From positions 1-39,710 of the forward strand of contig CAIMWE010000075.1 of assembly GCA_903845115.1 (NCBI GenBank): 39,710 nt of DNA. Direction: 5' to 3'. This stretch comes from an uncultured Acidobacteriota bacterium (lineage in GTDB: Bacteria; Acidobacteriota; Thermoanaerobaculia; UBA5066). The notes below the pieces were generated by a model that saw only the letters and a list, made by a program, of their open reading frames with translations, did no database searches and had not been told where the DNA came from. The position numbers and the translations under genes are program-made. Shown piece after piece: positions 22,710 to 27,081 of the stretch. Position 1 is the stretch's first letter. Every line of letters starts with the position of its first letter.

Positions 22710-24422
22710 ATGGACGTCGAGACGGTCCGGCCCACCGGATGGACGTCGCGACCGGCATCCCGGTGGATCCTTGCCGTCCTGGTTGCGCTCGCCGCCGGGG
22801 CCGGGGGAAGCCTCCTCGGGGGCTTCGAGCACGGCAAGGTCGCGGCGAAGGAGCCGCAGTCGTTCTACTTCCAGTACAGGGATCTGGTGTGGGGCACCGC
22901 CGGGGTGATGGCGGCGCTCCTCCTGCTGGTCGTCGGCCTCGCCGTGAACATCCTCCGGCGCCGCAGGGCCGAAGCGGCTCTCGAGAGCGAGCGGGCATTC
23001 CTGAAGTCGGTCACCGAGCGGCTGCTCGACCAAGGCCGGCAGCTCGAGCACACCGCCCACCACGACCCCCTCACCGGCCTCCCGAACCGCCTCCTCTTCC
23101 TGGACCGCTTCCGCCAGGCGATCGCCCGCTCCCACCGCTCCCACAACACCGTCGCCCTCCTCTTCCTGGACCTCGACCGGTTCAAGAACGTCAACGACAC
23201 CCTCGGGCACGAGACCGGCGACGCGCTGCTCCGGGAAGTGGCCGAGCGGCTCAAGGCGAGCGTGCGGGTGGAGGACACGGTGGCGCGGCTGGGAGGCGAC
23301 GAGTTCACGATCCTGATCGAGGAGTCGCGCGAGAACCCCACCGGCGTCGCGGTGGCGCGGAAGATCATCCAGGGGCTCGAGCGTCCGTTCTCCGTGGGCC
23401 AGCACCAGCTCTACGCGGGGGCGAGCATCGGCATCGCCATCTTCCCCGTCGACGGCACGTCCGTCGAGAGGCTGATCCGGAACGCCGACGCGGCGATGTA
23501 CCTGGCGAAGGAGCGGGGGCGCGGGAACTACCAGTTCTTCACGGAGAGCCTGAACGAGAAGGCCCACCGCCAGCTGGTCCTCGAGACCCGGCTGCGGGAG
23601 ACGCTGGCCGACGGCGGCCTCGACCTGCACTATCAGCCCATTGTCCGCCTGAGGGACGGGAAGGTCGTCGCGGCCGAGGCGCTCCTCCGGTGGACCGACC
23701 CCGAGCTGGGAACGGTGCACCCGGCCGAGTTCATCCCGGTCGCCGAAGAGACGGGCCTCATCGTGCCGATCGGCGAGGCAGTCCTCCTGAAGGCGTGCCT
23801 GGCGGCCACCCGCTGGCACGAGAACGGGTTCCCCGAGATCCGGGTCGCCGTCAACATCTCCGCGCGCCAGTTCTGGCACCAGGACCTCCCGGCCACCGTC
23901 CGGCAGGTGCTGGCCGAGTCGGGCCTCCCGGCGCGGTATCTCGAGCTGGAGCTGACCGAGAGCCTCCTCCTCCCGGACAGCGACGCGGCCGTCGACGTCC
24001 TCCAGGCCCTCCGGCGCCCGGGGATCCGCCTCTCCCTGGACGACTTCGGCACTGGCTACTCGTCCCTCGGGTACCTCAAGAGGCTCCCCTTCGACGACCT
24101 CAAGGTGGCCCAGACCTTCGTGAAAGACATCTCCGTGAATCCCAACGACGCGGCCGTCGTCCGGGCCATCCTCTCGCTGTCGAAGACGTTCGGTTTCCAG
24201 GTCACCGCCGAGGGGGTCGAGACGCGGCAGCACGTCGACTTCTTCCAGACTTACGGGTGCGACCTGGCGCAGGGCCACTACTTCAGCCCGGCCGTCCCCA
24301 TGGCGGCGTTCGAGGAGCTCCTCCGCGCCCAGGAGGACCGTCCCATGTTCACGTGGGACGACGATGCCGGCCCGGGAAGGGCTTCGCATCCGGAGGACTT
24401 CGGCTCCGAAAAAATCCCTTGA
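22710..24422 (+). CDS. Membrane-anchored GGDEF-EAL bifunctional cyclic-di-GMP protein
   Basis: This 570-residue protein has two membrane helices (~19-38 and ~62-82) enclosing a small periplasmic loop of about 25 residues. A linker helix leads to a GGDEF domain (~115-280) with intact GGDEF at 195-199 and an inhibitory RVED site (186-189) five residues upstream, so diguanylate cyclase activity with product feedback is plausible. The EAL domain (~290-545) has EALLRW at 323-328, DDFGTGYSSL and EGVET, all typical of active phosphodiesterases. Either activity may dominate; both look intact. AAGGAG precedes the ATG. The periplasmic loop is too short for a known sensor domain. The stop codon overlaps the -35 element of the metY leader promoter. 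Confidence 0.92.
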   Translation: MDVETVRPTGWTSRPASRWILAVLVALAAGAGGSLLGGFEHGKVAAKEPQSFYFQYRDLVWGTAGVMAALLLLVVGLAVNILRRRRAEAALESERAFLKSVTERLLDQGRQLEHTAHHDPLTGLPNRLLFLDRFRQAIARSHRSHNTVALLFLDLDRFKNVNDTLGHETGDALLREVAERLKASVRVEDTVARLGGDEFTILIEESRENPTGVAVARKIIQGLERPFSVGQHQLYAGASIGIAIFPVDGTSVERLIRNADAAMYLAKERGRGNYQFFTESLNEKAHRQLVLETRLRETLADGGLDLHYQPIVRLRDGKVVAAEALLRWTDPELGTVHPAEFIPVAEETGLIVPIGEAVLLKACLAATRWHENGFPEIRVAVNISARQFWHQDLPATVRQVLAESGLPARYLELELTESLLLPDSDAAVDVLQALRRPGIRLSLDDFGTGYSSLGYLKRLPFDDLKVAQTFVKDISVNPNDAAVVRAILSLSKTFGFQVTAEGVETRQHVDFFQTYGCDLAQGHYFSPAVPMAAFEELLRAQEDRPMFTWDDDAGPGRASHPEDFGSEKIP

Positions 24423-24447
24423 CATCCCGAGGCGGCATCTCTACCGT
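24419..24447 (+). promoter_or_regulatory. Promoter of the metYX attenuator leader
   Basis: A consensus TTGACA (24419-24424) is followed after exactly 17 bp by TACCGT (24442-24447), a weaker -10. Transcription would begin near 24454, two bases before the ATG of the leader peptide at 24456, so the leader mRNA should be leaderless or nearly so. The -35 overlaps the stop codon of the preceding GGDEF-EAL gene. Confidence 0.6.
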
Positions 24448-24455
24448 CTGCCGAA

Positions 24456-24563
24456 ATGTTTGGTTCGCCCTTCCTCCCCGCTGCCCCGAGCGCGACCGCC
24501 GTCGCCTCGACGGGAATGTGTATGTCCATGTGGATGTGCATGGCCCCCCGCGAGCGGGAGGAC

Positions 24564-24581
<18 letters not shown>
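24456..24581 (+). CDS. Putative Met/Cys-rich attenuation leader peptide for metYX
   Basis: An open frame of 41 codons starts at ATG 24456 and stops at TAG 24579-24581. Codons 21-29 spell MCMSMWMCM (ATG TGT ATG TCC ATG TGG ATG TGC ATG): five Met, two Cys and one Trp in nine codons. A shorter start at codon 21 itself is possible (21-residue peptide), but neither ATG has a good Shine-Dalgarno; the first lies at the predicted mRNA 5' end and could be read leaderless. The frame is followed by an antiterminator arm, a strong terminator and metY-metX. Stalling at Met or Cys codons during shortage would favour read-through. This is inferred from arrangement and codon content; no homologue is known to me. 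Confidence 0.65.

Positions 24582-27081
<2,500 letters not shown>

Follow-up and report, generated by a model that had tools for sequence, protein, structure and literature searches.

A methionine operon and its leader

The window, by which the whole 39,710-nucleotide stretch under analysis is meant (contig CAIMWE010000075.1 of an uncultured Acidobacteriota bacterium), contains metY, encoding an O-acetylhomoserine sulfhydrylase, and a metX-like gene that overlaps the metY stop codon (Table 1). As the metX-like protein scores below the MetX cut-off, its acyl specificity is putative. A GGDEF/EAL-type ORF lies directly upstream of a short leader ORF, on the same strand and in the same frame; it ends at 24422, 33 nt before the leader ATG. 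The leader ORF, with the translation MFGSPFLPAAPSATAVASTGMCMSMWMCMAPREREDGGLAA, terminates in a TAG codon at 24579-24581, and codons 21-29 form a Met cluster. Five Met within nine codons were reached by none of 500 base shuffles. A short ORF rich in codons for the end product upstream of a biosynthetic operon, and an intrinsic terminator between this ORF and the first gene, are two of the features expected of a ribosome-mediated leader-peptide attenuator. A second match of the leader DNA in the same genome is short and G+C-rich, lies inside a gene that reads as thiolase-like, and was dismissed as chance.

Table 1. Coordinates of the leader, its control elements and the metY operon
Feature	Position	Strand	Basis
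-35 box TTGACA	24419..24424	+	sequence; TTGAC between -41 and -36 in 28/28 start-aligned class leaders
-10 box TACCGT (TANNNT)	24442..24447	+	sequence; TA at -15, -14 or -13 in 26/28 start-aligned class leaders
Transcription start (predicted), at any of three A's	24454..24456	+	spacing from the -10 box
Leader ORF, 41 codons plus TAG	24456..24581	+	translation; Met-cluster leaders in 28/42 class upstream regions
Control codons MCMSMWMCM (5 Met, 2 Cys)	24516..24542	+	translation; shuffles
Antiterminator strand 2, AGCGGGAGGACGGA	24553..24566	+	pairs with 24632-24645, -22.0 kcal/mol; 10/200 shuffles reach it
Intrinsic terminator hairpin, then TTTCTTTTTT (T tract)	24632..24659	+	-24.2 kcal/mol (predicted)
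Shine-Dalgarno sequence of metY, AAGGAG	24701..24706	+	sequence, -8.7 kcal/mol
metY, O-acetylhomoserine sulfhydrylase	24716..26032	+	TIGR01326, 651 bits, cut-off 495
metX-like homoserine O-acyltransferase	26029..27081	+	best TIGR01392, 262 bits, cut-off 500

It is extremely improbable that the ORF is incidental and that metY is controlled by a SAM-type riboswitch or some other RNA structure. SAM-I riboswitches do occur above cut-off in 46 of 147 genomes of the class, including one on another contig of the window's own genome, but an Rfam search found no match anywhere in the window, and hence no RF00162 (SAM-I) upstream of metY, and the Met cluster is conserved in the class leaders. The SAM-I element of the own genome (G000:C223:7785-7896, minus strand, 60 bits) has no obvious methionine gene just downstream. 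In an Ignavibacteria MAG (L100, 1269-1394) and a Bacteroidetes MAG (L107, 1221-1346) a Met/Cys-rich short ORF is followed by a SAM-I riboswitch and then by metY, an order that makes tandem control of metY possible at these two loci. In a Gemmatimonadota MAG (L067, 1343-1416) a match to RF00521, the alpha-proteobacterial SAM riboswitch, precedes metY; L064 and L065 contain a stretch that by eye resembles this element, below cut-off, together with a Met/Cys-rich ORF.

Conservation of the leader and its start

MetY was found at E <= 1e-110 in 56 of 148 genomes of the class, and 42 upstream regions of MetY homologues were read in two sets of 22 and 20. Left out of the 30 MetY loci behind the first set were L015 (contig edge) and, from genus g17, the seven loci L023, L026-L030 and L032; three other g17 loci are among the regions read, and none of them has a leader. 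Also left out were the contig-edge matches in G133 and G137 and the remaining g17 matches. A Met- or Met/Cys-rich leader ORF is present in 28 of the 42 regions (18 of the 22 and 10 of the 20), spanning 19 genera and 7 families. The 14 regions in which no such ORF was seen (L016, L022, L024, L025, L051, L052, L056-L063) all belong to families f8 and f12. Outside the class, a Gemmatimonadetes MAG (L132, 1196-1351) has the Met/Cys leader MFDRTPHSVHEIPASAQPVAPRVTSGMPCSIFMCMCMCIPPARGTGARSGT before metY with similar promoter spacing, and this locus was joined to the 28 class leaders to give a set of 29, in 28 of which a terminator was detected. Met-cluster ORFs were also listed in Ignavibacteria, Bacteroidetes and Acidimicrobiia by a script that lists obvious chance ORFs as well.

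In the window the promoter of the leader consists of TTGACA, a 17-nt spacer, TACCGT and, after a further 8 nt, ATG 24456. The -10 hexamer ending at 24447, the ATG at 24456 and ATG 24516 as codon 21, all given in the initial annotation, agree with the sequence. That annotation had transcription begin at about 24454, 2 nt before the ATG; if the customary distance of 6-8 nt separates the -10 box from the first transcribed base, transcription is predicted to begin at one of the positions 24454-24456 and the 5' UTR would measure 0-2 nt. By the E. coli yardstick TACCGT is a poor -10 box, identical to TATAAT at only three of six positions, which is why a consensus promoter scan of the window does not list this promoter. 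What lifts the proposed start above chance is its conserved spacing among the class leaders, a comparison that removes most of the doubt. The bases between the -10 box and the start vary in the start-aligned leaders. The pattern TA...T at exactly -14 is found in 10 leaders, against a maximum of 4 in 1000 shuffles, a result favoured by the manual choice of start codons: at each locus the in-frame start adjoining the promoter was taken, which in most cases is the first ATG of the Met frame. The start is GTG in L005, and the spacing from the -10 box deviates in L006, L048 and L054 (12, 11 and 10 nt), the -10 box of L048 being doubtful by eye. At L044 an ATG further upstream opens a longer ORF in the same frame, and in L010, L012-L014 and L018 an upstream in-frame TTG is the -35 sequence itself.

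The position of the GGDEF/EAL gene suggests another origin of the transcript, by read-through from that gene or from some other promoter further upstream, in which case the leader would not be leaderless and would be translated by re-initiation or 70S scanning after the stop codon of the gene. We consider this improbable, because the sequence above the promoter differs between genera whereas the distance of 13-15 nt from promoter box to start is retained.

Pairing energies with the 3' end of 16S rRNA were computed with an assumed anti-Shine-Dalgarno sequence, ACCUCCUUA; a search of the window's own assembly for a 16S gene with which to verify it gave no match. With this sequence, the stretch before ATG 24456, UCUCUACCGUCUGCC, does not pair (+1.2 kcal/mol), nor does that before ATG 24516 (+0.4 kcal/mol), in line with the earlier claim that neither ATG has a Shine-Dalgarno sequence, and the metY ATG at 24716 pairs well (-8.7 kcal/mol). 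With the same assumed sequence, the leader starts of the 29 loci average -0.28 kcal/mol, with 2 of 29 at -4 kcal/mol or below, and the metY starts average -8.2 kcal/mol, with 28 of 29 at or below this value. Initiation at an ATG of the Met cluster, with codons 1-20 serving only as 5' UTR, would find some footing in the weak pairing before ATG 24522 and ATG 24528 (-4.3 kcal/mol each) and in the 15 of 116 internal Met ATGs of the 29 leaders that reach -4 kcal/mol, all with the assumed anti-Shine-Dalgarno sequence. It is nevertheless very unlikely, as in each of the 29 leaders an uninterrupted frame of 8 to 34 codons leads from the start near the promoter to the Met cluster, and 24516 itself has no Shine-Dalgarno sequence; for the same reasons initiation only at ATG 24516 is unlikely.

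The leader start is not an isolated case. In 14 genomes of the family, TTGAC-N17-19-TANNNT is followed by an ATG after 7-9 nt at 151 sites (reversed-pattern control: 2), after 13-15 nt at 52 sites (control: 5) and after 3-5 nt at 25 sites (control: 4). At 7 of the 11 promoter-ATG sites of the own genome the frame is open for 99 aa or more, at 21 of 27 further loci from family genomes for 79 aa or more, and at 28 of another 40 sites, one of them common to the set of 27, for at least 70 aa; by eye, many of these frames resemble ordinary regulators, transport or envelope proteins. Judging by this peak of ATGs 7-9 nt after promoter-like sequences, leaderless starts look family-wide. Acidobacteria, together with Actinobacteria and Deinococcus-Thermus, are named among the groups rich in TA-led genes in the accessible part of PMC3160421. 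A recurrent leaderless-type start ending in GAGTGATG occurs at L151, L172 and further sites of the family; at the two that were read, L151 and L172, the frames open into proteins that by eye are TetR-like. Leaderless initiation of the leader peptide, as proposed in the initial annotation, is thus well supported at the level of sequence by the conserved promoter-to-ATG spacing, the lack of a Shine-Dalgarno sequence and the family-wide ATG peak.

Predicted folding and a model of the proposed switch

RNA folding was modeled with all pairing barred upstream of and under the ribosome, a crude treatment in which any earlier stall antiterminates too. In the window the binned terminator probability is below 0.1 with the A site at codons 3-25, 0.4-0.5 at codon 26 and above 0.9 at codon 27 or later, which places the predicted switch point inside the Met cluster. 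The terminator probability is 1.0 for RNA free of ribosomes and for RNA with a ribosome at the stop codon. A strand 1 (24468-24483) that might act as an anti-antiterminator is not claimed; its pairing was reached by 20 of 200 shuffles.

The relatives behave less clearly. At equilibrium the full terminator has a mean probability of 0.82 in 28 leaders even with the ribosome stalled at the middle Met, so that most of them would need to switch kinetically. When the transcripts are truncated before strand 4, the mean pairing of strand 3 is 0.60 for a ribosome at the middle Met codon, 0.21 for one at the stop codon and 0.48 without a ribosome. The fit between strand 2 and its own terminator was equaled by 224 of 20000 permuted pairings of 27 leaders (L048 and L049 left out), by 487 of 20000 with one leader per genus (18 leaders) and by 1282 of 20000 for the 10 leaders outside the window's family; within that family (7 leaders) there was no excess (16259 of 20000). 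For 16 of the 28 leaders in the shuffling test, over 20 of the 200 shuffled sequences equaled the real strand 2 in their pairing with strand 3. Support for the antiterminator across loci is modest: in these models its release by a stall at the control codons, to the exclusion of the terminator, is clear in the window and modest or absent across the relatives.

The most probable reading, to which we give a probability of about 0.8, is that metY and the metX-like gene are controlled by a methionine-responsive, ribosome-mediated transcription attenuator, the leader ORF of which would start at the 5' end of the mRNA or no more than 2 nt from it. The Met codons, the terminator, the cognate operon and the folding all argue for the attenuator that the initial annotation had assumed. 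When charged Met-tRNA, and perhaps Cys-tRNA, is plentiful, the ribosome would pass the control codons and reach the stop codon, strand 2 would be covered or paired elsewhere, and the terminator would form and end transcription. When Met-tRNA is short, the ribosome would stall on the first Met codons and leave strand 2 free to pair with the 5' half of the terminator; metY would then be transcribed and translated from its own Shine-Dalgarno sequence.

Instead of methionine charging, the signal might be the supply of cysteine or sulfur, or the overall state of translation initiation. The 29 leaders contain 66 Cys beside 116 internal Met, in G003 (L185) the gene behind a Cys/Met leader is cysH-like, and the available text of PMC9031893 describes leaderless mRNAs as binding 70S ribosomes at their 5' AUGs. 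Yet Met is the commoner residue, and the leaders of L017, L053 and L055 have many Met and no Cys, which makes this alternative doubtful. That the leader, as an attenuator of methionine, responds in addition to the state of the 70S ribosomes, as the annotation had suggested, is a hypothesis drawn from general knowledge of leaderless mRNAs.

A wider and more speculative view, which we think rather unlikely, is that leaderless leader ORFs are the standard form of attenuator in this lineage (Met before metY, Lys/Thr/Met-containing before asd, Cys/Met before the cysH-like gene) and that the methionine version reads the Met-tRNA pool twice, as initiator tRNA would have to place a 70S ribosome on the AUG at the 5' end and elongator tRNA would set stalling. 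Since termination is predicted for window RNA free of ribosomes, expression would be highest when Met is moderately short and would drop again once initiation itself fails. Leaderless-type short ORFs, e.g. MNPPLARKRKTTMTKTTPRGGRASGPTIGNG, precede aspartate-semialdehyde dehydrogenase at L038 (contig C51 of the own genome), L189 and L198, where a terminator-like hairpin also lies in front of this gene; at L185 (G003:C49:6490-7129) the leaderless-type Cys/Met leader MQAARMCCMCTMAWGRPRTRGAMPVLRRM and a terminator-like hairpin precede the cysH-like gene.

A second short ORF is located between the terminator and metY in L017, L020 and L053 of family f5 and L021, L031, L054 and L055 of family f10. 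In all seven f5/f10 leaders read it has its own Shine-Dalgarno sequence and Met codons near its start; it overlaps the metY start in another frame and ends 29-62 nt past the metY ATG. From this layout, the second ORF may add translational control.

Relation to known attenuators

The control of methionine genes is usually ascribed to SAM riboswitches, T-boxes or repressors, and a conserved leader-peptide attenuator that reads Met codons would fill a gap in this picture. The leader resembles the SAM-I (S-box) riboswitch in that methionine genes would be controlled by an RNA element in the leader, and differs from it in that the window has no Rfam match. The SAM-I riboswitch senses SAM directly, without translation. 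A limited search of the open-licence literature found no methionine leader-peptide attenuator by title or abstract. For Actinobacteria, the accessible part of a 2005 survey (PMC1262725) reports leaders for Trp, Cys and Leu, whereas in front of Met operons it found no RNA structures. With its predicted leaderless start, the Met leader would provide a defined system in which to test how 70S initiation and tRNA charging combine in one switch, and gene finders that rely on Shine-Dalgarno signals may miss leaders of this kind.

Leaderless leader ORFs in attenuators are already in print, to judge from the portions of the literature at hand, for mycobacterial Cys leaders, Sinorhizobium meliloti trpL and Corynebacterium glutamicum ilvBNC. 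The control codons of S. meliloti trpL are Trp codons. The trpL transcript has the AUG of its leader ORF as its first three bases and is then subject to attenuation, as is predicted for the window transcript; its target is trpE(G), and a trans role of the peptide peTrpL is reported there (PMC7298713, in part). The ilvBNC operon of C. glutamicum is discussed in the accessible text of PMC11857589 as a leaderless-mRNA attenuator with three hairpins, similar in this respect to the layout predicted for the window leader and different in its control by branched-chain amino acids. Also close in design are the polycysteine ORFs of mycobacteria (Canestrari et al. 2020, known to us via parts of PMC9094748, PMC9031893 and PMC13236596), which like the window leader are short, rich in cognate codons and located upstream of sulfur genes, and which are leaderless and act as attenuators, as is predicted for the window leader. 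They contain consecutive Cys codons, and the part of PMC1262725 at hand describes the region in front of the mycobacterial cys operon as having no conserved terminator hairpins, whereas the window leader, in another lineage and with another target, is dominated by Met and is followed by an intrinsic terminator.
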